Assembly: GCA_024958655.1 (NCBI GenBank) | Contig: JANWUR010000003.1 | Coordinates: 124,001 to 188,000 of the forward strand | Source of the DNA: Cyanobium sp. FGCU6 | Lineage (GTDB): Bacteria > Cyanobacteriota > Cyanobacteriia > PCC-6307 > Cyanobiaceae | DNA: 64,000 bases | Direction: 5' to 3' | Part shown: positions 7,415-62,905 of the stretch, piece by piece | How positions within the stretch are numbered: position 1 is the stretch's first letter | Layout: each line of letters begins with the position of its first letter | The notes under the pieces: generated by a model | Told to the model about the DNA's origin: nothing | Databases searched by the model: none | Seen by the model: the letters and a program-made list of their open reading frames with translations, nothing else | Program-made: the position numbers and the translations under genes

Positions 7415-9404
<1,990 letters not shown>

Positions 9405-16790: not shown

Positions 16791-16862
<72 letters not shown>

Positions 16863-16981
16863 TTGGCAACAATCCCACTCCCCATCGCATGATCAAAGCG
16901 TCGCTTGTTTAGCAAAGTGCCTGGAATCGTTGACTCCGAAGCGGAACTATGATGTTCCCTTCGGCATCGCCGCATACCCGC

Positions 16982-17575
16982 TCACAACCAGTGGTGGGGA
17001 TACGGCACCAGGGGGTTCCGCAGGCGATTGAACAGCACCGCCAGGCCCACGAGCAGCAGGGAACCGCTCAGGATCGGCACCAGCACGAAACCCAGCCTGG
17101 CCTTCAGCAACACGCCGAGCAGGGCCACCGCACCGGCGGGGGGGTGCAGGCAGCGCAACTTCTGGCCCAGGGCGATGCTCAGCCCCACCGCCAGACCCAT
17201 CACCCAGGGAGATGCACCCAGAGTGCCCACACACCCCGCGCTGACCAGGGCCGCCAATGTGTTGCCCAGCACAATGTTGCGGGGCTGAGCCAGGGGGCTG
17301 GTGGGGTGTCCGAACAGCAGCACGGTGGACGCGCCGAAGGGCGCCACCACCAGGGGGTAATGGCTCCAGGTGCTGATCAGTCCCAGGGCCGTGATCGCCA
17401 GCAGACCGCCCAGCCAGGCCCCGAGAACCTCATGGGGCTCGAAGCGGGGCTGATAGGCCCGCCCCCTGGCACGCTCAACCTGAAGACGTCGCCACAGCAT
17501 CGGCTTTTGGTAGCGATACGAACCATTCAAGCCAGGGAACTGGGCCGGCGGCGGCTGTCGGTCGGCGGCCACCAT
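16982..17575 (-). CDS. HPP family integral membrane protein
   Basis: The 197-residue protein has an N-terminal soluble part of about 50 residues and four hydrophobic segments. The family motif HPP is in CLHPPAGAVALLG, and the preceding APFGASTVLLFG and HPTSPLAQPRN blocks are also typical. Some HPP proteins from plants and cyanobacteria have been described as nitrite transporters of plastid or cell membrane; this role for the present gene is inference. Its start overlaps the stop of the upstream secreted-protein gene by one base (TGATG), so the two are co-translated. Confidence 0.88.
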   Translation of the reverse strand: MVAADRQPPPAQFPGLNGSYRYQKPMLWRRLQVERARGRAYQPRFEPHEVLGAWLGGLLAITALGLISTWSHYPLVVAPFGASTVLLFGHPTSPLAQPRNIVLGNTLAALVSAGCVGTLGASPWVMGLAVGLSIALGQKLRCLHPPAGAVALLGVLLKARLGFVLVPILSGSLLLVGLAVLFNRLRNPLVPYPHHWL

Positions 17576-17982
17576 CAGGCCGCCGCTTCACAGGCGAAGT
17601 CCTGCACGTCGCCGCGGCTGCGCCGCAACCGGAAGCGGGGGTGGGTCGGATCCTCCAGGCTCCACCACCACTTTCCATCGGTGAAGCTGGCGGTACCGGC
17701 ATTGTTGGTGCGGGGCAGCTGCAGGTTCAGGTCGCGCCAGTGCAGCACCACGAAGCCCCCCACGGGAACAGGGCCTGTGGTGGGGTCGGTTATGCCCGGC
17801 TCGTCCATCGGACCCGGAAACAGCAGGGCGCTGAGGGGATCGCCATCGCAGTGGAAGGCCTCGGCCGATGCGGTGGTATCAGCTCGGAGCGGCGCGGGCC
17901 AGGAGACCAGGAAGAACAGCAGGCCGACGGCCAGCAGCGCGGCCCGTTGGATCCTGCGCCAGGCTGGGGGTTGAGGGGCCAT
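17575..17982 (-). CDS. Predicted secreted protein, unknown function
   Basis: A 135-residue protein with an N-terminal signal peptide: basic start (PAWRRIQR), hydrophobic core AALLAVGLLFFLV, and a likely cut after LRA. The mature part is rich in Trp (GKWWWSLEDP) and Gly/Pro, with two cysteines (FHCDGD and DFACEA) that could form a disulfide. No family is recognised. It is the first gene of a two-gene unit with the HPP gene (TGATG overlap) and its start region faces the divergent DCC gene. Confidence 0.68.
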   Translation of the reverse strand: MAPQPPAWRRIQRAALLAVGLLFFLVSWPAPLRADTTASAEAFHCDGDPLSALLFPGPMDEPGITDPTTGPVPVGGFVVLHWRDLNLQLPRTNNAGTASFTDGKWWWSLEDPTHPRFRLRRSRGDVQDFACEAAA

Positions 17983-43128: not shown

Positions 43129-44106
43129 ATGACCGTCGCCGCTCCTTCCGCCAACGGGGCCAGCACCACCAGCCGCCCTGCTGCTCCTCGACCCAGCCAG
43201 AGGCCGCCATCGGCACTGGAGCTGACCCGCTCCGCTGATCGCAGCGAGGCGCTCCCTGCCGCCGCGCCGGAATCCACGTCGGCCGCCGTCTCGATTCAGC
43301 CCCCAGGCTTCTCCCCCGAGCAGCTCGCCGCCCTCTCCGCCCCGCTGGATCGGGCCAACGTCCGCCAGCGGGAGCAGGGCCGCAGCCGCGTGAGCTATTT
43401 GGAGGGTTGGCAGGTGATCGCGGAGGCCAACCGCATCTTTGGTTTCGACGGCTGGCAGCGCCAGACCATCGCGGTCCGCTGCGTCGCCCAGGCCGAACGC
43501 ACGATCGGCAGGGATCAGAAGCCCGGTTGGGGCGTCACCTACACCGCCCGCGTGCGCGTCACCGTCACCGCCGGTGGGCTCGCACCCCTGGTTCGGGAGG
43601 GCAGTGGCGCCGGGCACGGCATTGACGTGGACCTCGGGCAGGCCCATGAATCCGCGCTCAAGGAAGCGGAGACCGATGCCATGAAGCGGGCCCTGATGAC
43701 CTTCGGGAATCCGTTTGGCCTCGCCCTCTACGACAAGGCGCAGCGGCAGGTCAGCACCGGAGTGGGCCAGGGTGATGGGCCCCAGCGTCAAGCAGGGCAG
43801 CGGTCTTCTCTGAGTCGGCCGGAAGCTGGTGCTCCCGCCACCACTGCTTCCCCGGCTCAGGGGCGCTCCAAGGCCTCGACGTCTACGCCATCAGCCCCGG
43901 CCGACTCCGGCCAGGTGGCCCTCGATGCCGAAACGATCCAGCACCTCCACAGCACCCTGCGGGCTCTCCCGCGGCCCCAGCTGGAGAGCCTCACCCGTGC
44001 CTTCCGCAAACGGTTCCAGGTGCCCGAGGAGGCGGTGACGATCGCCGATCGGATCAACCAGAAGTGCCACCACGACTGGATTGAGGCGTTTCTCGTCCAG
44101 CAGTAG
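43129..44106 (+). CDS. Rad52/Rad22-family single-strand annealing protein
   Basis: Recombinase that anneals complementary single strands. The 325 residues have a disordered N-terminus of about 65 residues, then the Rad52 core (about 65-200): LSYLEGWQVIAEANRIFGFDGW-type sequence, TYTARVRVTVTAG, GAGHGIDVDLGQAHESALKEAETDAMKRAL and FGNPFGLALYDK. A Ser/Ala/Pro-rich linker and a C-terminal helical segment follow. Such proteins in bacteria are of phage origin and work with an exonuclease; none is seen nearby. Confidence 0.88.
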   Translation: MTVAAPSANGASTTSRPAAPRPSQRPPSALELTRSADRSEALPAAAPESTSAAVSIQPPGFSPEQLAALSAPLDRANVRQREQGRSRVSYLEGWQVIAEANRIFGFDGWQRQTIAVRCVAQAERTIGRDQKPGWGVTYTARVRVTVTAGGLAPLVREGSGAGHGIDVDLGQAHESALKEAETDAMKRALMTFGNPFGLALYDKAQRQVSTGVGQGDGPQRQAGQRSSLSRPEAGAPATTASPAQGRSKASTSTPSAPADSGQVALDAETIQHLHSTLRALPRPQLESLTRAFRKRFQVPEEAVTIADRINQKCHHDWIEAFLVQQ

Positions 44107-47987: not shown

Positions 47988-50900
47988 TCAGCCCGGTTCC
48001 CGGGTCACCATTTTGATTACATCCGCCTCACCCGAAAGCGCCTTAGCCGATAATTCAATTACGTTCCATTGATGCTTGCCTAGCGAAAGTGCCTGCCGTA
48101 TAGCTCGGTCACGACGTAGACGACTTCCCGTATGAAATGCAGCGCCATCAATATAGATCAAGGTATTCTTATCTCTCACCTTGAAGTCCGCCTGGCTGAT
48201 TGGCCTTCCCCCAGGATCAGGGCTTACAGGCACCTGCTTCTCCACCTCAATCCCATGCTTCTCAAAAAGACGGAGGAACTTCAGTTCCAGAGGTGAGCCA
48301 ACGCCTGCGTCATAGGCCTCCAGCCAGGGAGATGGATCGTCAGAATCACCTCTCTGGAGTGGCAGGGTTTCTGGCTCGGCCATCGCGAGAGTCTCCAGAT
48401 CCGGCATGATGCGCGGCCAGGAGAGGTGCTCGTGGTGACGTTGATTGGTGTAGGTCTTTAGGCATCGATAACACGCGGATTCGCAGTTGGGATGATCGAG
48501 GTGATCTATGGCACGTTCTGCGACCCGATGCATATCATCGACGCAACGCTCCAGGAAGCCGCTCCCACCGACGGCGGCATCAATGAAGGTGAGCGCTCCG
48601 AACTTTCGGCTTTCTCCTGACCGTCGCTCTTCCCATTGGGGTTCCAGCTCAAAGTCAATCTCAGGACCATCGAGCATGTAGAGCTGACGCAGGCCAGTGC
48701 GGAGAGCAAAGCCAAGTGAGTAACCCCAGCGCTTGTAGTCCTCGTCCTCGAAGTTGCGAGGCAGGACAACCGTGATTCGAAGTGTCGTTGCCGGTGACTC
48801 GGTTGTGATGGCTACGGGCTTGGGTGGTTGACCACTGCGTTGGCAGCTTGGGGCATGACCGTAGGGATCAGGACCATTGGCCTTACGGGTCTTGCGCCGA
48901 CCTGTCTTGTTGGGCGCGTCGTCGGGGAGCTTGAGATTCCTTCCGCAGCTGGGGCAGAGGTAGAAACCACGTGCTTGATCATGAAGTGACGGCTTGCCCT
49001 CCCGCTGGTCTGCAGCTGTGGGTGGCTTGGATTCATTGACCCAGCGGATGGTTTCTTCGGCTCGCAGTTCCGCGATCCACCCCGTCGCTAACTTGCGCCT
49101 TGCCTTCACGCGGCCATTGCGCTGTGGGTGGCACGAGACAAGCGAGCCGATGGAGAAGCGGTCCTCCTCCTGCAACACGGGGTTGTCGTCACGGATCGCC
49201 AGGAAGCCCCCGAAGCTATGGCCTGGGTAGCCACCTCCACCTCCCACAGTTTCTGTTGATCCACATCGAGGGCAGCTTGGTGATTGCCCTTCATAGCGGA
49301 GATCGCAATCCTTGCAGCGCACGTAGACCCAGTCAGGTTCTGCTGTTTTGGGATTCCAAGGGGAAGCAAGATCCAGTCCCACAACCCTCCATCGATGCCC
49401 CCGGGCATGAACCGGCGCTTCCGGTTGGTACTGCGCAATCCCAAAGCGCCGCGCCACGGTGATGCTGTCTTCCTCGTGTTCATCCCCCCAGAGCCTCAAA
49501 GTGCTTGGTGCGGATGGGAATTCATAGCCTGGGAGAATCCCAAACTCAGCAAAGCGGCGCATGGGATGGCCACTCCCCCGGTCATCGGCATCACCATCAA
49601 ACCGATCATCCCGAATACCGAGGATTTTCCGTTTGAGATCCATGGCATGCGTAGCCGAGCGGTCACCCTTTCCAAACTGATTCCAAAGATCGATCGTTTC
49701 TTGTAGTTTCAGGATCTGATAGCGCACACGATCGAAGAGGTCTCTTACGCGATCAGGAAGCTGTTGAAGCGCGGCCTCCAGGGCTTCCGATGTTCCAAGA
49801 CCAGCAGGGTCAAGAACGTCAGCTCCCCACGCATCCTTGGCCAGCTCAATCGCGTGGGGGAACTGCTCGACGACTGCGACAATCAGCTCATCGACCTTCT
49901 CCTGATTGACTTCGCCCTGAATGTTGATGTATTCCGCCATCCGCCCCGCAAGCCCGGGATTGGCAGCCCCAAAAGCGATGGCATGCAAGTGGCGGAGCAC
50001 CACATCGCGATTGCCAAGGCCCACACCTGGGGCTGGCACTTCACCGGCAATCATCTCGGTGGGCTTGTCGAAGAAATAGCCGTCATGGGGAGTGCTGCGT
50101 GCATAGCCGAGCACGATGCCCACTCGCGATCGGCGGCCTGCTCGGCCTCCCCTCTGGGCGTAGTTGTCCGGCCGTGGGGGGATGTTGCGCATCACCACCG
50201 CATCCAGACCACCCACATCGATGCCCATCTCCAGGGTGGGTGAGCAGGCGAGGACGTTGGTGGCGCCTCTTTCCTTCGTTCCTGCCCAGCCAGGTGGCGG
50301 GCTGAATCCCGGTGGAGGAGCCTTGAAGTCTTCTTCCAGGGCTATCCGGTCGTCGCCAGTGATCTGTGCTGTGTGCTCACCAGCTGCGAGAGGCATCAGG
50401 TCTGCCTTCTCAATCCGCTGCACGTAGCGATTGCGTTGGACTTCCTCTTCCGGCCAGGCTTCCAGGACGCCGTGGCAGCTCGGGCAGGGGCTGCCAATCG
50501 GCGCCCAGGGCATGCGCACATTGCAGATGGAGCACCGACGGCGGTCTTCTGCGGCCACGAGCTCCAGGCTCGCCACATCCCCATTCACTTGGAGCAGACG
50601 CCGCGCCTGCCGATGCCCATGCAGCTGCTGGGCATGGATCAGCCGGGGCCCCTTGGTGAGTAGCTCCAGTAGTTCCACCATCAGCTCAACATTGGGCTCA
50701 GGTCCACCGAAGCGGCTCACCAGGTGCCTCAGCTTCCGCTCGAGGCTGGGCCCCCGGCCTCCTGCCTTAGGGCGACGCCAGGCATTTAGCTTGGAGATCC
50801 CTGCGGGAGCCTCAGCGTCTTCCTGGTAAGCCAGGGGCTGGCCATCCGCTTCGCAGGCGTATCCGCAGGGGTTCTTGATGCGGCGCTCCCAATCGGCAGG

Positions 50901-53339
50901 CCCTCGGAACTCCTCGGGACAGCTGGGACTGGCGGGGTGATGGCAGAGCATCGGCCTCGAGAGTGCCCCCCTGCGCCGCATTTCATCGAGCAGGCAACGG
51001 CAGACGTAGGCGAGCTGCTCCTTGGTCAGGCCCAGAGCCGCAGCAAGGCTGGCTCCGTTCTTGTTGATATGGGCCTCCAGATGCTCGTAGCGGATGCCCA
51101 CCAGGCCCAGATTGAGCAGCGATGCCCGATAACCGGCGCTGACGGCAAGATCGTCCAGCAGGGGAGCCTCCTCCCATGCCTTTGCCTTGGCCCTTATTGC
51201 AGGTGCCAGATACTGTGCATCGTCGTAGTCCTTGGTGTTGGGGTTGTCGCCACGCTCTACCCCGTAGGCCACCAGCTTTGTGAGCAGTTCTTCGATGCTT
51301 CCGCGAGACTCCGGGCTCTCTTTGAGGGCTTGCATCAGCAGGCGGCGCATGCGGTCGTAGCGGCCGGCGTAGCTGATGAAGCGAGCCTGGTGAGCGGCGT
51401 CCTGGCGGCTGTCAGAGAAAATCAGCAGCCGCTCCTTACCGTCATGGCCAGGGCGGTTTCGGTTCTGAACAGCCAATCCCTCACAGAGGCCCTCCGCCAA
51501 CACCCGCACAGCGGCTGAGGTTCCAAGCGACACAGCCGTGAGCACGTCGTGCGCACCGGCGGTCCCGCCGCAGACAAGACAGCGATTCCTGGCTGGCGCG
51601 AGCACAGCCTTGACCGGGTAGTCGTTCTCTCCGGTGGAGAAGGAGCAGGTTGCCGGATCGAAGCTCCCCTCCAGCACCTTGCGGCCCCGCATCTGCTGCT
51701 CCACGCCCACCATCCCGGCGCGGCGCGAGGTAGACGCGTCCTCATCCAGCTCCTCCTCGTCGCTGGTTTCAAAGCGCGCCCGGTCGTAGAGCACCCATTC
51801 GTTCTGGTTGGAGCGGCTGGAGTTCGGCCGAAGTGCCTCCGCCTGGGGGCCTCCTTCACCGGAGGAGAAGCGCAGCGTGTCAGCTCCGCAGGAGCGGCAG
51901 AGGTAGAGCGGCGCTGCTGTGCTGCCGCAGCTGCACTGCTCCTCGCCCATCGGATGGAGCTTGCCGCAGGCAGGATCCACGCAGCGGGTAAATCGCCAGC
52001 CGCCGCGGATGAAGCGGTGGGCCCTCAGGCGCAGGGCCCCGGGCGTGTAATCCGGCAGGGCGGCGCCGAGCACAAGAGCAGCCTCCACCTCCTGGCGGAC
52101 CTCCTCCGGATCACTGCTGCTCCGTTGCGGCACGCTGCCCTGCACTTGCTCCACGATCTGGCTCAGCGACATCGGCCGGCGAGCCAGCAGATCGTTGAGG
52201 CTCCAGAGAATGCCGCTCTGCTGGGCCAGGCTTTCCAGCGGCTGCTCCGGTGAGCCACCGCTCAGCGTTGCCAATGCCGGCCGCAGATCTGCCTCAGCGA
52301 GGGGCGTCTGAAGGTGGGGCACAGCTGGCTCCGGCGTCCAGCGGGCCAGCTCGGGGATCTGTAGTTCCCGGAGTTCCTCACCCAGCACCCGAAAGCGATC
52401 AGCCGACACACCCGTGAGCTTGCCGAGGAACTCCTGCACCGCTTCATCCCGCAGCGCCTTCACTTCTGCCGGTGTGCGTCCGGTTTCATCGATGCTCTTG
52501 ATCGTGGCCGAGGTGGCCACAGGCAGCGTTTCTGGGAAGCGACGAGTGTCGCTGCGATCGTCCACCTTCCAGTCCTGACGCGCCTGGCGCAGGTGGGCCA
52601 TCAGCCGGCGGAAGAGCAGAGCGATGTTGGCGCCCAGGCTGCCGCGGTAGGTATGCACCTCATCGAGCACCACAAACCTGCAGCGATGGTTCGCGAAGAG
52701 GGCATCGCGATCGGCTGGTCGTACCAGCAGGTACTCCAGCATCATGTAGTTGGTGAGCAGGATGTGAGGCGGCTTCTCCCGCAGGGCCTTGCGTTCGTCC
52801 TCCTTGGTGGAACGGTCGTAGCGGGCCACCTTCACATGGGTGTGGCCGGAATCCTTGAGGTAGTCACGAATGCGCTCCTCCTGGTCGTTGGCCAGCGCAT
52901 TCATCGGGTACACCAGCAAGGCTGTCAGGCCCGACTGGGGGAAGCGCACCGAATCTTCGATGGCGTTCTGGATCACTGGAAGCAGGAAAGTCTCCGTTTT
53001 GCCGGAGCCAGTGCCAGTGGTGACTGCCAATGGCCCGGCGTCGGCCCCCAGAAGATGGCGGATCGCCTCGCTCTGGTGGAGATAGGCGGTTTCCGAGCCG
53101 GAGCGCTTCTCCATCACCTGCGCCAGGCGCACGTCGAGACCCAGCTCTCGCCAGGGGAGGCCACTCTTGAACGGTCGGTGGGCCTGGAAGAACGGCTCCT
53201 GTGCCAAGAAGCCGGCTTCATCGAGGGCAGCCTCCAGCGCTTGGCGCAACTGGGTATCCCTGGCCTGGAACTCCGTGGAGAGGTAACTGCGGTACTCCCC
53301 CAGGACCTCTTCGACGATGGTGATGGGGTTGAGGGTCAT
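47988..53339 (-). CDS. DEAD/DEAH helicase with DUF1998 domain and C-terminal Vsr-like nuclease domain
   Basis: A 1783-residue protein of the DrmA/DruE/DpdJ type. Helicase core: TGTGSGKT (108-115), VYPMNALANDQ, DEVH (226-229), SATI, then a very long insert with several cysteine clusters (CVDPACGKLHP, CSCGS, YLCRSCG, RCLVCGG, CSICN, CPSCHG), and motif VI QRGGRAGRR. The DUF1998 region includes FIDAAVGGSGFLERC and CESACYRCLKTY. After about residue 1682 comes a further domain: SPLELKFLRLFEKHGI (E1685), ISQADFKV (D1718), LIYIDGAAFHTG (D1731, H1736) and RRDRAIRQALSLGKHQWNVIEL, which looks like a Vsr/PD-(D/E)XK nuclease. It is the last gene of the operon, 41 nt after the AlbA_2 gene. The final 200 bases are more A/T-rich. 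Confidence 0.88.
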   Translation of the reverse strand: MTLNPITIVEEVLGEYRSYLSTEFQARDTQLRQALEAALDEAGFLAQEPFFQAHRPFKSGLPWRELGLDVRLAQVMEKRSGSETAYLHQSEAIRHLLGADAGPLAVTTGTGSGKTETFLLPVIQNAIEDSVRFPQSGLTALLVYPMNALANDQEERIRDYLKDSGHTHVKVARYDRSTKEDERKALREKPPHILLTNYMMLEYLLVRPADRDALFANHRCRFVVLDEVHTYRGSLGANIALLFRRLMAHLRQARQDWKVDDRSDTRRFPETLPVATSATIKSIDETGRTPAEVKALRDEAVQEFLGKLTGVSADRFRVLGEELRELQIPELARWTPEPAVPHLQTPLAEADLRPALATLSGGSPEQPLESLAQQSGILWSLNDLLARRPMSLSQIVEQVQGSVPQRSSSDPEEVRQEVEAALVLGAALPDYTPGALRLRAHRFIRGGWRFTRCVDPACGKLHPMGEEQCSCGSTAAPLYLCRSCGADTLRFSSGEGGPQAEALRPNSSRSNQNEWVLYDRARFETSDEEELDEDASTSRRAGMVGVEQQMRGRKVLEGSFDPATCSFSTGENDYPVKAVLAPARNRCLVCGGTAGAHDVLTAVSLGTSAAVRVLAEGLCEGLAVQNRNRPGHDGKERLLIFSDSRQDAAHQARFISYAGRYDRMRRLLMQALKESPESRGSIEELLTKLVAYGVERGDNPNTKDYDDAQYLAPAIRAKAKAWEEAPLLDDLAVSAGYRASLLNLGLVGIRYEHLEAHINKNGASLAAALGLTKEQLAYVCRCLLDEMRRRGALSRPMLCHHPASPSCPEEFRGPADWERRIKNPCGYACEADGQPLAYQEDAEAPAGISKLNAWRRPKAGGRGPSLERKLRHLVSRFGGPEPNVELMVELLELLTKGPRLIHAQQLHGHRQARRLLQVNGDVASLELVAAEDRRRCSICNVRMPWAPIGSPCPSCHGVLEAWPEEEVQRNRYVQRIEKADLMPLAAGEHTAQITGDDRIALEEDFKAPPPGFSPPPGWAGTKERGATNVLACSPTLEMGIDVGGLDAVVMRNIPPRPDNYAQRGGRAGRRSRVGIVLGYARSTPHDGYFFDKPTEMIAGEVPAPGVGLGNRDVVLRHLHAIAFGAANPGLAGRMAEYINIQGEVNQEKVDELIVAVVEQFPHAIELAKDAWGADVLDPAGLGTSEALEAALQQLPDRVRDLFDRVRYQILKLQETIDLWNQFGKGDRSATHAMDLKRKILGIRDDRFDGDADDRGSGHPMRRFAEFGILPGYEFPSAPSTLRLWGDEHEEDSITVARRFGIAQYQPEAPVHARGHRWRVVGLDLASPWNPKTAEPDWVYVRCKDCDLRYEGQSPSCPRCGSTETVGGGGGYPGHSFGGFLAIRDDNPVLQEEDRFSIGSLVSCHPQRNGRVKARRKLATGWIAELRAEETIRWVNESKPPTAADQREGKPSLHDQARGFYLCPSCGRNLKLPDDAPNKTGRRKTRKANGPDPYGHAPSCQRSGQPPKPVAITTESPATTLRITVVLPRNFEDEDYKRWGYSLGFALRTGLRQLYMLDGPEIDFELEPQWEERRSGESRKFGALTFIDAAVGGSGFLERCVDDMHRVAERAIDHLDHPNCESACYRCLKTYTNQRHHEHLSWPRIMPDLETLAMAEPETLPLQRGDSDDPSPWLEAYDAGVGSPLELKFLRLFEKHGIEVEKQVPVSPDPGGRPISQADFKVRDKNTLIYIDGAAFHTGSRLRRDRAIRQALSLGKHQWNVIELSAKALSGEADVIKMVTREPG

Positions 53340-53380: not shown

Positions 53381-55147
53381 CTAATGACGGGACTGGGAGT
53401 GGCGGCCAGGAGGCGAGCCCTGCTCTGGTGAGGGTTTTGGGCAGGGGAGGGCGTCTTCTATCGGCTCGTCTGGAGTGCCTAACGACGGGTCAGGAGGGAA
53501 GTACCGCCGCCAGCGACGCTCGCCTTCGGGCCTGATCCGCTGGCTGGTCACCAGGACCTGCAGTGCATCGCGCAGGGTGCTGGCGGGGATTTCCGGGGCG
53601 ATCCGGCTTCGGATTTCCGGCGCGCTGGCACCCGGATAGCGGCTGATGTCTTCTTCCACCAGCGCCCGCAGACGATGGGGTGCAATGCGCTTCAGGGTGG
53701 TCTGACGATCGAGACCAACCGAGCGCAGGAGGCTGGGGGTCACGAAGTAGCGGGTTGCTCGTGTACGGCCTGTCTGGCCGATGATCTGAAGATCGAGAAG
53801 ACGATCCAGCCAGGGCCGGAGCGCCGCAGGCTCCGTCAACTCCAGGGCAGACGCCAGTTCTGTAGCCAACATGCCCTCGGTAGAAGCCAGATAGCCCAAG
53901 ACAATTCGCTCGCGTTGCTTGAGCTGATGCTGCTGGTCAGCTGCAGCAATCAGACGAATGACGTCTGGATGCAAGACCCGCCGTGGGATTTCAACATGCA
54001 CCGAGTCGATGTCTTCACGCACCCTTGGAGCTGATCGCCCACTGACAAGCAGCTTTTCATACATCAGATCAAAGCCTGTGCCCTCCCGTTCCATCAACTT
54101 GAGGTCGTGGAAGATGCGGGTCAGGCCATCGTTTCGGCGCCGGAACGTGTGCAGAATGTTGGAGGGGGTAACACCCATCGGCAGCCGTCCCACATTCACC
54201 ACCTCCAGCCGGTCTGGGTGGAGGTTGAGATAAATGTCCCCTCGTTGGGTATAGGGGCGGTGCACCAGGGCGTTGACCAACAGCTCTCGCACCACGGCTT
54301 CTTCGTAGGCGGGCACCTGGGTGCGGAACATGCCCTCGGGGAATTCGTAGCTCTCGCGGAAGTCGGGGATCTCCTCCCAGATCGCATCCGGCAACTCAAT
54401 GGGAGACAGGGCGTGGTCGTCCCAGCAGAACTTGTTGACCTTGACGCCCTGGTCGTCGTAGCAGATCGCCTGAATCACCGGCGCAGTGCCTAGCCTGGCG
54501 CGGTCGAAACGCTGGCCCAGCAGAAGTACGCCGAGATTGGTGAGCAGATCGCCGCTGGCGAGGTTGTAGTGATCCAGCAGTTCCTGATCGCTCTGTTCTT
54601 TCACCGTTGGCTTGACTCGATCAGAGGCCCGCAGCTGGGTGCACAGAGATTCCAGCTTCTCGGGATCGACTGCTGCTCGAGAAATCTGGAGCGTGGTCAG
54701 CGTCTCCCATGGGAATGAAGGCCTGTCATTGGCCAGGCGCAGCACTTCATCCCCAAGAATGGGCTTGCAGTCATCCCCGATGCGCAGATAGAAACGGCCA
54801 TCACACGTGGAAGCGACACCGATGGCACGCTGAATGGTGAGAACGATCAGCTGACCACCATTGGCTGCGGTCTGGATCTCCGGAATCACCGTGACATTCA
54901 CAGTGAGCTCTCCGATTCGCTTGCGGATGCGATCGAGAACCCGAGAATCGACGCGTTGCCCAGTTGGTGGCTGTAAATCATCGTCTTCGATGCCGATCAG
55001 CAGCTGCCCACCTGAGGCATTGGCAAAGCAGACACAGTCCTTGGCGAGTTCCTCGAAATCAGTGGATCCACCCTGTACGACACGGAGGGACTTGCGATCG
55101 AGTCGCTGGCCCTCTTCGGTGTCGATCACAGCAGTTAGCTCAGCCAT
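53381..55147 (-). CDS. AlbA_2 domain/HATPase_c-like ATP-binding protein
   Basis: A 588-residue protein. Residues about 10-140 are an AlbA_2 (Schlafen-type) domain: [29 protein letters not shown]. Residues about 270-370 are the HATPase-like ATP-binding part common in these proteins ([43 protein letters not shown]). Two or three winged-helix modules follow (about 395-540), and the tail is Pro-rich. Related proteins are called transcriptional regulators, but some act in phage defence. The first eight bases overlap the end of the methyltransferase gene, so it belongs to the operon. Its role, whether regulatory or effector, is not known. Confidence 0.85.
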
Positions 55148-58100
55148 CCACCCTCCGGTACCGCATCCCGCGCCGCTGGCCTTCGGTCACCGCCAGGCCC
55201 CGCTGCACCAGCTGCTGGAGATGGGGCCGGACGCCAGCAGCATCCAGACCCGTTGCCTGCTGGGCATCGCTGGAGGTAATCACGCCGCGGGAGCGGAGCA
55301 GCTCAGCGATGGTGGTGAAGGCACCATTGGCGCTTGGGGATGATGTAGCTGAAAGCCTGTGCTGGTTGGGAAGAGCCGCTGTAGACAAGGAAGCTCTGAC
55401 TGGCGGCTGAACCAGCCTCAGGGACTCGGCAGCAGCCCCATCAAAGAGGGGTCCAAGGCCTGTAGCTGCCTGCCCGGGGATCGTAAGATCGATGACAGGC
55501 TGAGGGAGATTGTTATTGAGAGGGATGTTCCAATATGGATCATATCTCTTTGCGAAGGAATCAATGCCGGATTCACGGAGATCATCGAAGGCGTTAAGGC
55601 ATAAGAATGGCGCCTTCGGATTGCTACTGTGACTGAAAGACGAGAGAAGATGCTCGTATTGCTGGCGACTCAGTCCGTACGCATCCGCCACAAGAGCGTC
55701 GACAGCAGCACGAATGCTCCAGCAATCTTTCTTACTACCCAAAACTGGCCAAGTTTCTTGAGGGCCCTCCTCACGCCAAATGTCTCCTAACTGCTCTTTC
55801 CATAATGAGGAGTATCCAGCGTGATTACAGGAAAGGCGAAGTGCTGCATGAGCGAGAAAGACTTGTACCTCATTGGCCACATTAGGCATTGGGCAGCCAT
55901 TGAGTATAAATAGATTTACTGTGGCCTGAACCTTCATGCGCAATGCGAAATCAAATGCAAACGAGTTTGCTATAGCCAAAAAAACAAGTGCGTGCCAGCT
56001 TGGTCTTTCGGATGGGTGGCGCTCACACGGAGCCTTGTTGCCACATACAATCCCAGGAGGTAAAATGCAGAATATGCCAGTTCTTTCGTTCGTTGAACTG
56101 GCAATATCTCGAAACGCCAGCCGGTAATGCTGCGCAGGTATGAGCCATCCCGGCTTGTCGGCAATCGCTTGTATTGAAACAAGATAGCGAGTAGGGGCTT
56201 CCCAGTGATCAGTGTATTGATGGAATGTCTTGCCTTCGTGTAGAAGCAAAAAACCCCTAGCTCGCAGACTTGCCGCGACCTCTGGATCGCGGCCATCAGA
56301 GCCTGGATTAACTACATTATCTCCAGACGTGAAGTAGTGAGCTCCTTTAGACATATCAATTTCAACGCCACAGCGAACGGAGTGCTTATGAGAGAATATG
56401 CCAACAGATTCACCAGACAAGAACAGGGTCTTTGCGACTTCGGAATCTTCTGCCATTCTTGGCTCTAGAAAAGTGTAGTAGCCCGCTCCGGTTCGTTCCA
56501 CAAACTCTCGGCTGTAGTTGAGCCGCTCTGAGCCGTCGAACAAGCGCTCCAGGTAATGCCAGTAAAAACCACAGCTAAACTGAGATGTGCCAGCCGGATC
56601 TTTTCCTGCGACTACGGTTGCAAACTTGAAGCTTCGATGAATGTCAAATAACTTCTTTCGATTTTCAAATGAAAAGCAGTATTTTAGATCCATTGATTCC
56701 AGATATAGCCTCCTGATTCCAGTGGCGCTTTGATTGGCATGAAATGCTGATGGGAAGACCTGCCCTGTTAGTCCTCTACGGCGCAAAAGGCTGCTCGCTC
56801 GCTCGGCAAAGAACTGCCATAGATCACTGATCGCTCCACTTGACTTTCCTTCTGCTTGCTTGCCTACGTGGCTTACGAGCTTTGAGGTAATCCGCTTGGC
56901 TTGCTCAAAGTCTTCAGCATAACGTTCCCAGGCGCTGGCAATCTCGGGAGTTTCGGCAAGTGTGCGTTCAACACTTGCGCGCTCCTTGCGTGTTGCTGCA
57001 TCCAAAACTCGAAGGTCGTAAGCGGCAAAGAATTCCTTCGCATAGGGCTGCATGGCATCCCATGGTGGGTTGCCGACAATGACATCGAAACCTCTCTTTT
57101 CATGATCCCTCGTTCCGAAAACTTCAGGAAAGGCAAATTCAAATGCTAGTGACGATATTCCTTTGTCTCTCATTGCACGTAGTGTCTCCTTGCGTTGGAG
57201 AATTTCATCTGTACTCTTTCTATCGGCAATCGCCTGTGCTAGTAGCTGATAGCTCACATCGTCACATTCGTCCCCCAGCATGACTCCGCCGCTCCAGGCC
57301 TGTGCCAATGTCTTGAGCGGTGCCAAGGCGGCGTCCAATTTTGCCTTGGCCGATTCCTTCTGATGTAGATCAGCCAGATCCTTGCCAACACTGGCTTCCA
57401 GATCCCGCACGTGCACAAGCGCAGCAGCCAGTGTGTCTTCCAGCCGTTGCGTCAAGCCTTGAGCAAACAGATCATCCAAGCGCCCACCACTCTTGGGATA
57501 AGTCAGTAGGTGCTCGAAGAATGGCCCTGTGAGTGAGTCGCCGCAGATCAGGCGGTGATCCAGGAAGGTGAGCGGCAAGCCCTCGGCGTAGCTCTCCAGC
57601 CACAGCGATAGCTTGGCCAGCTCCACTGCCAAAGGGTTCTTATCCACCCCGTAGAGGCAATGCACGGCCACCAGGCGCCGGCACATCGCCTCGGCTTTCT
57701 TCTGCGAGAGGCCGCTCTCCTCTCCCTCGGTTGCCCGGCTGGGGAGATAGGCCAGCAGTTCGTTGTTCGGATCCGGCAGGTCTTCCACACGTTGTCGCAG
57801 CTCGGCTGCTTGGGCCAGCAGAGCCTCCCGTTCGACTCCCTCAGCCTTCTCTGCTTGCTCCTCCGCTTGGACGGCCAGCTCATCGCAGAGGCGGCAGGCT
57901 TCATAAAGCCCTTCACCCAGGAAGCGGCAGGCCTCCACCAGGAAGTGGCCGCTACCCATGGCGGCATCGAGCACCTTGAGCTTCAGGATCAGCGCCGGCT
58001 GCGGGTTGTCCCTGGGGCTGCATTCCGCCAGCAGCACACCCAAGGTTTCCTGCACCAGGAACCGCACGAAGGGATGGGGGGTGTAGTAGCTGCCGCTGGC

Positions 58101-59621
58101 CTTGCGACCCAGGCCCACCCGCAGGAAGAAGCGATCGGCGGCGATCTCTTCGATGAACTCCACCTTGGTCTTGCTGCCTGAAGCAGCCCGACCTCGTATG
58201 GGAGCTTGTTCGTCCTCGTCTCCCTCCTCTTCGTCCTCTCCGGTCTCTTCCTGATCGCTCGCCTGAACCGGATTGCTGCGGTAAGGGTCGCCCTGGGCAA
58301 CCGGCACCACCACCTCGAGCTTGGCCCGGCGCAGACGGCACATCGGTTCGCTGCTGATCCCCGGCTCCAGTTCCAGCAGGGATTCGTAGACCCGGCCCAG
58401 GTCTTCCACATCCAGGGCGCCGTAGTGCACCCGCTCCCGCATGGTCACGCCTTCGCCGGGCGTCCAGAGCAGGGCATCGAGCAAGCGCGCCACCGCCTGC
58501 TCGCCCCACTGCAGCTGATCCAGCAGCGGGGTGGCGTCGCGCCCAAACAGCATCCCGCCCAGCGGTTTGATCTCCAGTTCGCTGGAGCTCATGCCCTCGG
58601 CGAACAAGCGCCAGAGGGTGCGCAGCCCGGCCTCAAGAAAGCCACCACTCTCTTTCCCCTCATCCAGAACCCGACGCACCAGATCAGCGAGTGCCGTATT
58701 GGGCGAGTACGTGTTCCGCCACAGGCTGGTGGCGGCAAAACTGAAGGCCCGAGCCGGATCCGCTGAGGACTCCAGCTTGAAAACAAACAGCAACCGGTAG
58801 ACAGTGATCAGGCCCTCGCCCCAAAGCTGTTGGGCCAGCTGCTGCCGATCGCTCCGGTTTGCCAGCGCCTGGGCATTGGCCGGATGCTCCAACACCTCCT
58901 GCAGAAAGCCCTCGATCGCGCGACGTGCCTGCAGCCGCAACTTCTTGGTGACGCTGCTCTGGGCCAACCGAGCCGCTTCCGTGAGATCTGGCAGCGCCGC
59001 CACACCGGCGGGGGAAGCCAGGGCCAGGAGCAAGCGATAGGAATCCGGCAACGCCCGGGCTGCCCGCCAGCCACCGGCGCGATCCAGGCGGATGCTGATG
59101 TGGCTGTCGGGTCGGGCGGGATCACAGAGCAGGATCCGTAGCTCTTCCCCATCGCTCAGCAGGCCCATCCGTTCACCACTGGCCAGCAGCACCCGCTGAG
59201 CCACGCGGCTGGGACTGAATCGATAGGCCCGGCCCCGCCGGTTGGGAGCGTCCAGATCGGTCCCGAGGCTCACCGTCCAGGCCCTCAGGCGCTGGCCTTC
59301 TGCTGTGGTGAACAACCAGCCGCCATCTTCCGCACCCTCGCGGGTGATCACCTCTGCTTGCCGCTCCAGGGCGCTGTAACCGAGGCGCTCCACCAGAGGC
59401 TCCAGCACGTGATTGGCCACGCGGCGATCGCCGCCCTGCTCCCCGAGCTGGCGCAGCTTGCGCCGCAATACGTCCCAGCGTTCCTCCAGGGCACGCCCCT
59501 CGGCGCCAGTGGTTTTGGCCAGCAGATTCCGCTTGCTGAGCTCACGTTCGAGCTGGAACTTCACAAACGGTTCCGGCAACGCCGGACCGTGGAAGGTGCA
59601 GTCACGCAGCTCCAGAGCCAT
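55140..59621 (-). CDS. Large N6-adenine DNA methyltransferase (DrmMI-like) with C-terminal winged helix
   Basis: A 1493-residue methylase of the Eco57I/PglX/DrmMI type. The N-terminal 500 residues are helical and unassigned. Then come [14 protein letters not shown] (510-523), SAM motif [12 protein letters not shown] (551-561), [19 protein letters not shown] and the catalytic motif NPPW (851-854). The C-terminal 60 residues ([33 protein letters not shown]...) form a winged helix, unusual for this family. The part from about residue 775 to 1380 (about 55,480-57,300), covering NPPW and the likely target-recognition domain, is clearly richer in A/T. The start overlaps the SNF2 stop (TGATG). It should mark self DNA. 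Confidence 0.9.
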
Positions 59622-62600
59622 CAGCCCAGCCCTCCGTCCTGCATCAGTGCCACAGGCACAGGTGCCCTGGGCACGAGCATCAGCAGCCCCAGCGGTTGCG
59701 GTTCCAGGGTGCGCAGCTGCGCGCGCTGCCCCAACTCCTTCTGGCGGTCGCGCAAGAGTCGCAGCACCCCATCGGCTTCCCGCCTCTGCGCGGGGGCGTT
59801 GCTGCCGTCTGTGGCAAAACCTGCCAGTCGCTCAGCCGGGTCATCGCTGACCTGCCAGCTCGCCAAGCCCCCACTGCCGCCAAACAGATCTGTCTGCGCT
59901 TGTTGCACCACGCCACAGATCGTGTCTGCCCGGGAGCGCAGCCAATCCTCCAGATCCCGTTGCTCCCGTTGCAGCTGCTGCGCGTGCTCCTTGCTGGCCG
60001 GTTCAGCGATGGCCGCAAAGGCCTCGGCGACCGCCTGCTGGGCTTGCTGTCGCGCCTGTTCCCCCCAGCTCGAAAAGTGCTGCTCCCAGAGGTCAGCGGT
60101 GCGGATCGGTTCCCCAGCCGTCACCGTCTGCAGCCAGGCCTCCGGTTCCGCCAGCTCCTCGATCGATCCAGTGGCATCGATGCGCAGCGCCAGCACCCGC
60201 TCCAGTTCATGGCCTCGGTCGCTCTCCAGCACGCCGAGGAAGGTGCAGAGGAGCGCGGGCGCAGGGATGTCCAGTCCGATGGCGCTGACGCGCCGATCCA
60301 GCCAGGCGTCCGTGTCCCCGAAGCGCAGATTGCGCACGCGATCCAGGGCTCTGCGCACGATCGGATGGGCCCGACCGAGGTAGCCCAAATCCCGACCGGC
60401 CTCATCGCGGCAGCGTTTGGCATCGCTGGTGAGACGCAACTCCCGCTTCTCAGCGTCGAAACCGGGGATGTCGCGCAGGCCGTGGGTCCAGGTTGTGGGC
60501 AGTCGCAACACCACATCGGCACCAGCACCAGAGCTTCCTGCCACTGGTGTGATGGTTCCGCCATCGGCTTCGAGGGCCTGGCAGACGAATTCCATCAGCT
60601 CCACCGCTCCCAGCCGCTCGCCTTCCGATCGGGCCTGCTCGGCTTCTGCCAGCAGCCGCGCCTCGGCGTTGAGGCCCACCTCACCAAGCCAGCTGCTGGT
60701 CTTGGCGGCTTTCTCGTAACCCGCCATGGCGCGCTCCACCTCTGCAAGCAGATCGCGGTAGGCGGCTGAGCCGGTGTCTTCCTCCGCGGCATCATCCAGC
60801 TTGCGAATCTCCCGTCCTGGCGTCGCAAAGAGCGTCTCCTCTTCCTCTCCCAGGCCCTCCAGCAATCTCACGGTCTGGGCGTCTTCTGTGGTGATGCCGC
60901 CGAGGGTGTTGGGCACGAAGGTGAGTCGCGCCCGCTGCCGCTCGTACTTGGCCACCAACCGCAACAGCAGCCGCTCCTCGAAGGTTCCCGCCAGGTAGAG
61001 GTAACGCACATCGGGATCACTGCGCTGGCCGTAGCGGTCGATGCGGCCGTTGCGCTGCTCCAGCCGGTTGGGGTTGTAGGGCAACTCCAGGTGGATCAGG
61101 TGATGGCAGCGTTCGTGCAGGTTCAGGCCTTCCGCGGTGGCATCGGTGCTCACCAGCACCAGTCCGTCCTGATGGCTGAAACGCTCGGTGATCGAACTGC
61201 GCTCCTGGGCGTGCTCAGGGCGGCCACTCACAGCCAGCACCTCGCCGTCGAGGTCACCCTGGCTTACTGCGTTCTCCAGGAAGGCCACCAAGGCGTCCTG
61301 GCTATCGGTGTATTCCGTGTAGATGAGGACATTGGCCCCAGGGGAGGCCTGGCGGATGGTCTGCAGTTCCCGCAGGGCCAGCCGCAGCTTCGGGTCTTCA
61401 TCCAGGGCAGCCTCTGCCATCTCCACCAACCCGTCCAGTGCCTCGCCGGTGTTGGCGATGCGTCGGCCGCGGTCGCGTTCGCGCCGCTGGGTGCGGAGCA
61501 GATCCTCGATCCGGCCGACGATGTCCTCCAGGCCGGTTTCCGTGAGGTCGGCCGCCATGTCTTCCGCTTCCAAGGCAGCGCGGTCCTGCTCCTCCTCAAA
61601 CGAAAGCGAGCCATATCGCTCCAGCCGCTGCTGGTATTCCCGCAGACTGCGCAGCCGCTGTTTTCGTGTTTCGGCGTCGCTGATCCGGCTGCTGACCAGC
61701 TCGCGATAGCGATCGCGGATCACGCCCAGCGTGTTGCGGCAAGCCGCCACCGTGGACACCGAGCGCTTGAGCAGCGATACAAAGGCCAGCACCTCCCCGA
61801 AGCGTCGTTGTCTCACCGCCTGCCGCAGGCGAGGTGCCACCGCCGCCAGCAGCGCCTGTTGGAATGCTGTGAATACCGGCTGCTCAGCCGCGCTGAAGAC
61901 CACGGCACGCGGGGCCACCTGGCGGGTTCGGAACAGCGGCTCCCCGGTTTCGGGGTCCTTGATGTGGTTTTTCAGACGGCGCACCACGTGCTGGCGGTAC
62001 CGCTCTGCCCTCAATCCACCGCGGCCATCCACCAAGCTCGGATCGAGCAGCTCCACCAGCGAGGCGAAGTGCGGATCGAAGCCATCGTGCGGGGTTGCCG
62101 TCAGCAGAAGGAGCCCATCACAGCGCGAGGCCAGCACCTCGGCCAGGCGCCGCCGCCTGGAGTCCTCCCAGTCGCCGCTGCTGCCCAGCCGCACGCAGTG
62201 GTGCGCCTCATCGAGGATCACCAGATCCCACACGGTGCGCTCCAGCTCCTGCAGCACCTTCTCCTGCTTGGCGAAGTCCACCGAGGTGAGGCAGAAGGAA
62301 ACGTGATCGAAGGGATTGGCTCCCAGCACCAGTTCGCGGCGACGCTCCTGGAGCTCCCCCGCGCTGCGAACGGTCTCAAAGCGCAGCCCGAAGCGTTCCC
62401 GCATCTCCCGCTGCCACTGCTCCAGCAACGGGCCGGCCGGCGACACGATCAGAATCCGGTGAGCCCGGCGGCGGGCGATCAGCTCCGCCATCACCAGGCC
62501 CGCCTCAATCGTCTTGCCCAGGCCCACACCGTCGGCCAGCAGCAGCCGTGGGCGGCTCATCCGCAGGGCACGCATCACCGGCACCAGCTGGTAAGGCGCG

Positions 62601-62905
62601 ATGTCGAGCCGCCCGGGTTGCACCGCCAGCAAGGCCGATGGGCCTAGCGACTGCTCCAGCAGAAAGGCGTCATGGAACAGCTGCCACTGGCGCAGCCGGC
62701 CAGCGCGGCGCGGATCGAAGTCGGTGGTGATCGGTCGGATCGCCTCGAACGGATGGAGCAGGTCCACCTCCATCCCCTGCAGGTCTCCCTGCAGACAGCG
62801 CAGCCGGTAGCGCTGCTGCTCGCCGGCAGGCTCGGTCTGGACCACCTCCCAGGCCAGGCCGCGAGCCTCCACTTGGGTGCCAGGCAAGACCAGGGTCAAG
62901 AGCAA
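59621..62905 (-). CDS. SNF2-family helicase, DrmD-like
   Basis: First gene of the defence operon; 1094 residues from a TTG at 62905. The N-terminus ([30 protein letters not shown]) matches the DrmD layout. Helicase motifs: [15 protein letters not shown] (motif I, 122-136), [17 protein letters not shown] (231-236), [10 protein letters not shown], and the C-terminal core [14 protein letters not shown] and [14 protein letters not shown] helical C-terminal region ([11 protein letters not shown]..., [19 protein letters not shown]) follows. In DISARM, DrmD is the SNF2 partner of the adenine methylase; the same pair is adjacent here. An in-frame TTG lies nine bases downstream of the start as an alternative. 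Confidence 0.88.

Follow-up and report, generated by a model that had tools for sequence, protein, structure and literature searches.

A predicted Vsr-like nuclease domain at the C-terminus of an ARMADA-like helicase from Cyanobium

The C-terminal tail of a 1783-residue DEAD/DUF1998 helicase from Cyanobium sp. FGCU6 is confirmed, by structure modelling and family profiles, as a predicted Vsr-like domain of the PD-(D/E)XK superfamily that looks intact. The helicase is encoded in the window, which is the whole stretch of 64,000 nucleotides analysed here. The proposal, with a probability of about 0.78, is that this domain cuts DNA as a metal-dependent endonuclease of Vsr/EDxHD type and forms part of the helicase in an anti-phage system resembling ARMADA. 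Its activity is proposed on the grounds of the fold, the motif set, the conservation of that set and the gene context.

The operon and its helicase

The helicase gene is the last of an operon that runs from 62905 down to 47988 on the minus strand, after genes for a DrmD/BrxHII-like protein, a PglX/DrmMI-like protein and a protein with AlbA_2 and HATPase_c_4 domains. The four genes and the domains of the helicase are as follows.

59621-62905, minus strand: ArmA-like DrmD/BrxHII SNF2 helicase, 1094 aa (PADLOC DrmD E 1.4e-111; NCBIfam DrmD E 2.7e-123, below the equivalog cut-off)
55140-59621, minus strand: ArmB-like PglX/DrmMI N6-adenine methyltransferase, 1493 aa (PADLOC DrmMI E 6.5e-85; Pfam Eco57I E 1.6e-20)
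53381-55147, minus strand: AlbA_2 (Schlafen) and HATPase_c_4 protein, 588 aa, the variable third gene (PF04326 E 6.7e-12; PF13749 E 6.1e-14)
47988-53339, minus strand: ArmC-like YprA/DruE-type helicase with predicted C-terminal nuclease domain, 1783 aa (PADLOC DruE E 1.6e-118; tree)
52575-53078, minus strand: RecA1/DEAD helicase domain, residues 88-255 (Pfam PF00270 E 3.8e-22)
50130-50270, minus strand: RecA2/Helicase_C domain, residues 1024-1070 (Pfam PF00271 E 3.3e-8)
48459-48710, minus strand: DUF1998/MZB zinc-binding domain, residues 1544-1627 (Pfam PF09369 E 2.6e-9)
47988-48338, minus strand: predicted Vsr-like nuclease domain (EDxHD-type, PD-(D/E)XK superfamily), residues about 1668-1783, the last ~115

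The ARMADA systems were named, and their core gene content described, by Bell et al. 2025 (PMC12458937, main text in part). A BrxHII/DrmD-like helicase, a PglX-like methylase and a YprA helicase stand together in the window operon, these neighbours are conserved in relatives, and the YprA helicase carries a predicted Vsr-type nuclease at its C-terminus. Read from its sequence, the operon is ARMADA-like and not a DISARM operon lacking DrmC. Pfam finds no PLD domain among its four genes.

Beyond the window, some 4.6 kb before the start of the operon, a major head protein of phage type is encoded (7469-8509 of locus L138, about 67468-68508 in window coordinates; phrog_212, E 1.9e-53), and few other phage genes are recognised near it; the operon may lie in a phage-like element. 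Downstream of the operon, 43129-44106 encodes a Rad52/Rad22-family recombination protein (Pfam E 6.1e-42). A single tRNA-Thr gene of the window, at 16791-16862, is followed by an open reading frame at 16949-17974 without PHROGs match, and is a possible integration site. The same genome holds two further ARMADA-like operons: the first has the type I order C-A-B (L036, G000:C27), and the second, at the start of a contig (L132/L139, G000:C66), has a helicase resembling type II with a UvrD helicase after it.

Fold of the C-terminal domain

The AlphaFold model of residues 1641-1783, built with 48 aligned homologues, has a pLDDT of 91.3, and the domain itself is modelled in the order helix-strand-strand-strand-helix-strand-helix. 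Compared by VIA-align 2, the domain model matches best the catalytic domain of I-Bth0305I (Z 11.0, 2.6 A over 92 residues), followed by the E. coli Vsr-DNA complex 1cw0 (Z 10.0, 3.7 A over 105 residues) and by 1vsr (Z 9.0, 2.1 A over 92 residues), with the Bax1, TnsA and VRR_NUC nucleases next at Z 7-8. Foldseek gives the same model a best E of 5e-3, with no match below 1e-3, and places Toxoplasma gondii mitoribosomal proteins and PspGI at the top.

The 124-residue tail by itself retrieves from the PDB with phmmer a chance match to ClpX alone (E 1.5), and against Pfam the helicase sequence reaches a sub-threshold E of 0.043 for MTES_1575. As the helicase sequence on its own is only weakly matched, the domain assignment was tested through its relatives and a family profile. 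When PDB sequences are searched with the profile of the 48-row alignment, Vsr ranks first (E 2.4e-5), and in the profile alignment to 1cw0 D1718 falls on the Asp of the Vsr PDF motif and RRDR on ERDRRD. Pfam matches among the 48 members are to MTES_1575 (32/48), DUF559 (27/48) and Vsr (6/48), with a match to the RAP family in a single member. The nuclease fold that a preliminary description had read in this tail is thus borne out, with structure, profile and conservation in agreement.

Active-site residues and their conservation

The motifs on which that reading was built, SPLELKFL, QADFKV, IYIDG, FHTG, RRDRAIRQALSLG and WNVIEL, are found in the translated open reading frame exactly where it had placed them. 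Five of the residues compare with Vsr as follows.

48285-48287, minus strand: E1685, helix glutamate in SPLELKFL, aligned with the Glu of Vsr AIEKRL (1cw0); invariant 27/27
48186-48188, minus strand: D1718 of QADFKV, aligned with the catalytic D51 of Vsr (PDF/ADF); invariant 27/27
48147-48149, minus strand: D1731 of IYIDG, which falls on the His of FTHG in Vsr; invariant 27/27
48132-48134, minus strand: H1736 of DGAAFH/FHTG, with the spacing of H69 of Vsr HGCFWH; invariant 27/27
48108-48110, minus strand: D1744 of RRDR, a motif that falls on ERDRRD in Vsr; invariant 27/27 and in 48/48 alignment rows

The 27 full-length clade sequences are those that include the tail, the window protein counted among them, and their identity to it goes down to about 46%. 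E1685, Q1702, D1718, F1719, Y1729, D1731, H1736, R1743 and D1744 are unchanged in all of them, and this count is independent evidence because the rows were taken by overall identity. Variation of D1718 and D1731 among orthologues had been set beforehand as the result that would speak against a nuclease, and neither residue varies. Across 48 more diverse C-termini (alignment A2) the Glu, the Asp-Phe pair, the second Asp and the later Asp are also invariant; that set was chosen for having E1685, D1718 and D1731, so the invariance of these three is not independent there and only the Phe and the later Asp are informative.

At the classical (D/E)xK place, in the strand that follows the catalytic Asp, the window domain has Tyr1729-Ile-Asp and no (D/E)xK; the Tyr is invariant in 27/27, and Vsr, which departs likewise, has Phe there. 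The clade consensus for this strand is [IVL]Y[IV]DGxx[FYV]H. Between its Gly and its His lie as many residues as in Vsr (HGCFWH) and in ARMADA type II (DGWEYH, DGFAFH), and one more than in ARMADA type I, which has DGxxH instead of DGxxxH; these spacings were tabulated with a looser text pattern, as a strict one missed most clade members owing to their variable spacing. Glu-Asp-His-Asp is the letter pattern in the name of the EDxHD family, and the corresponding set (E1685, D1718, H1736 and D1744) is present in 27/27. Vsr mismatch endonuclease proper also has zinc-site Cys/His residues. These are not seen in the alignment of the window sequence, where Ala1733 takes the place of the Cys of HGCFWH and the positions following the His carry neither Cys nor His. 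Because of the invariant Tyr at the place of the (D/E)xK acid and the Vsr-like Gly-to-His spacing, the predicted active site is a Vsr/EDxHD variant, and neither a textbook PD-(D/E)XK site nor a DUF559 one.

The helicases of ARMADA types I and II are described as having at their end a Vsr-type nuclease that is predicted to be active (PMC12458937, in part). Judged from their residues, type I helicases are not uniformly of this kind, because a subset of those sampled (L042, L105, L109, L110, L115 and L120) has lost the Vsr catalytic set while keeping the C-terminal tail. The site can therefore decay, and its full retention in the window clade argues for activity.

A Vsr-like fold is in itself no proof of cutting, since FASTKD4 retains a Vsr-like pocket with an Asp and is apparently not a nuclease (PMC11879112). 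By this precedent, the domain could be a non-cutting clamp of Vsr fold that binds DNA or RNA in the manner of RAP/FASTK proteins, with another protein cleaving or with cleavage being no part of the defence. The T. gondii mitoribosomal proteins among the top Foldseek matches, the alignment member that matches RAP and the type I tails without the catalytic set all point that way, but the invariance of E1685, D1718, D1731, H1736 and D1744 in 27/27 goes beyond the needs of a binding role, and the clamp is regarded as unlikely.

Composition and age of the domain

The tail had also been described as rich in A/T, which is correct: residues 1660-1783 are encoded with a GC of 0.532 and a GC3 of 0.508, whereas residues 1-1640 have 0.628 and 0.712, and this 124-codon stretch has the lowest GC among all such stretches sampled along the gene. 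GC already falls within the DUF1998 part (0.576), and the low value persists in the non-coding DNA downstream (0.53). The A/T-richness of the domain is not consistently common to the relatives, one of which (L062) has 0.713 in the domain and 0.698 in the rest. The domain lies at the same position in every full-length relative, and its pairwise identities follow those of the helicase (Mantel r 0.749; none of 2000 permutations as high). Neither the GC of the domain against its relatives nor the divergence of domain and helicase gives evidence of a recent fusion. Since the domain is present across the clade and has diverged along with the helicase, the separate acquisition that its composition had suggested is not supported, and within this clade the domain is, by these comparisons, an old part of the protein.

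These results also bear on the proposal that the fused nuclease replaces a missing DrmC, which presumes a DISARM system that lost DrmC and newly acquired a nuclease on its helicase. The DrmD-like and DrmMI-like neighbours and the A/T-rich 3' end would suit such a history. The helicase, however, is a single chain of the DruE/ARMADA kind (PADLOC DruE models E 1.6e-118 versus DrmA E 6e-15), the domain is equally placed in 27/27 full-length relatives, and ARMADA fusions are already published (PMC12458937, in part), which makes this history extremely improbable. Replacement of DrmC was rejected, as helicase and DUF1998 are in one chain and a C-terminal nuclease fusion is usual in that lineage according to the same source; the window operon bears no sign of DrmC loss.

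Relatives and the variable third gene

In 84,980 species genomes scanned, relatives are encoded at 423 loci, and the analysis went on with the best 80. About half of these 80 form a compact clade with 44-94% identity, spread over Cyanobacteriota, Myxococcota, Acidobacteriota, Planctomycetota, Chloroflexota and other phyla, and the other half show about 25-39% identity over the best segment. Two extra close members were added, one on a Pseudanabaena plasmid and one from another genome of the window's class. In the tree, whose ARMADA reference rows were typed by gene order, the window helicase falls inside neither the sampled type I (15 rows) nor the sampled type II (5 rows) clade, but in a clade apart from both (SH-aLRT 100), whose sister may be either type I or type II (p-AU 0.484 for joining with type II).

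The gene order of this clade is A-B-X-C, and at about 25 loci the methylase gene precedes that of the helicase. The X gene encodes an ArmD-like ParE/RelE-UvrD protein in L031, L032 and L053, a UvrD homologue in L058, and a HEPN/RES protein in L061, and it is missing in L047. In the window and in the more distant L052 it encodes an AlbA_2 protein, as in L046, L048 and L062, where close homologues of the window gene occupy the equivalent place. The AlbA_2 gene looks like an exchangeable accessory. In the Pseudanabaena plasmid (L031, 4047-27509), a Phd/VapC pair sits between the first two genes of the window-type operon, which is convergent with a DruE-like helicase.

The window helicase thus belongs to a clade of its own, with A-B-X-C order and a changeable third gene, that is possibly less known. 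It is tentatively suggested, at somewhat less than even odds, that this clade is a third ARMADA lineage present in many phyla, in which a swappable X accompanies a constant helicase and an intact Vsr-like nuclease. If so, a fixed predicted cutting core would be combined with an exchangeable accessory, be it ArmD-like RelE/ParE-UvrD, Schlafen AlbA_2, HEPN/RES or none.

Proposed function

In the proposed mechanism, the ArmB-like methylase would mark host DNA or sense its state, giving self-recognition. By analogy with DruE, the helicase would probably feed DNA to the tethered nuclease, and the Vsr-like domain may nick or cut the DNA being fed through.

A role of the domain in host DNA repair and not in defence, as a structure- or mismatch-specific nuclease of true Vsr-like function, could be argued from Vsr being its nearest characterised sequence relative and from the repair helicases found within the YprA/MrfA family (PMC12458937, in part). 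Against this, the neighbours are defence genes conserved alongside the helicase, and Ala1733 in place of the Cys of HGCFWH means that the Vsr zinc site is not kept, so that repair is a very unlikely role.

Taken as a predicted endonuclease, the domain offers a clean case of helicase and nuclease in one anti-phage chain, with an invariant active site and with natural relatives that are without it. What cuts phage DNA in ARMADA could be addressed directly by point mutants of this domain. For one E. coli ARMADA, defence needs all four genes and the Walker motifs of ArmC, and mutants of the Walker motifs and of the methylase are reported, while in the part of the main text drawn on here no ArmC nuclease mutants were found (PMC12458937).

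Comparison with known systems

DISARM class 1 shares with the window the DrmD-like and DrmMI-like genes, but the window operon has no separate DrmA and DrmB and no DrmC. Druantia DruE, described as combining helicase and nuclease and as loading onto 3' single-stranded DNA (PMC13192584), is likewise a single-chain YprA-type helicase with DUF1998 and gives the best PADLOC matches; its tails are PLD in type III and inactivated Vsr in types I and II (PMC12458937, in part). Unlike in Druantia, the partner genes DruH, DruA-D or DruM-F-G do not accompany the window helicase, whose neighbours are DrmD/DrmMI-like and AlbA_2. E. coli Vsr and I-Bth0305I have the fold and the E-D-H-D positions of the window domain, which differs in being fused to a helicase and lacking the Vsr zinc-site residues, and from which mismatch recognition is not expected.

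ARMADA type I has the three core genes and the Vsr-like C-terminal domain, but its usual order is C-A-B, its motif is DGxxH and not DGxxxH, and its helicases form a separate clade. Type II (ArmA-ArmB-ArmC-ArmD) resembles the window in having A and B before C, a Vsr-like C-terminus on ArmC and the DGxx[FY]H spacing, and some window-clade members carry a ParE/RelE-UvrD gene resembling ArmD. It differs in that the window helicase belongs to a separate clade and is without the additional C-terminal domains frequent in type II, and in that the third gene of the window, between B and C, encodes AlbA_2/HATPase instead of ArmD. The architecture itself is already known, as the Vsr tails of ARMADA type I and II helicases were described in 2025 (PMC12458937, in part), and the window finding is therefore a correct independent reading of it.
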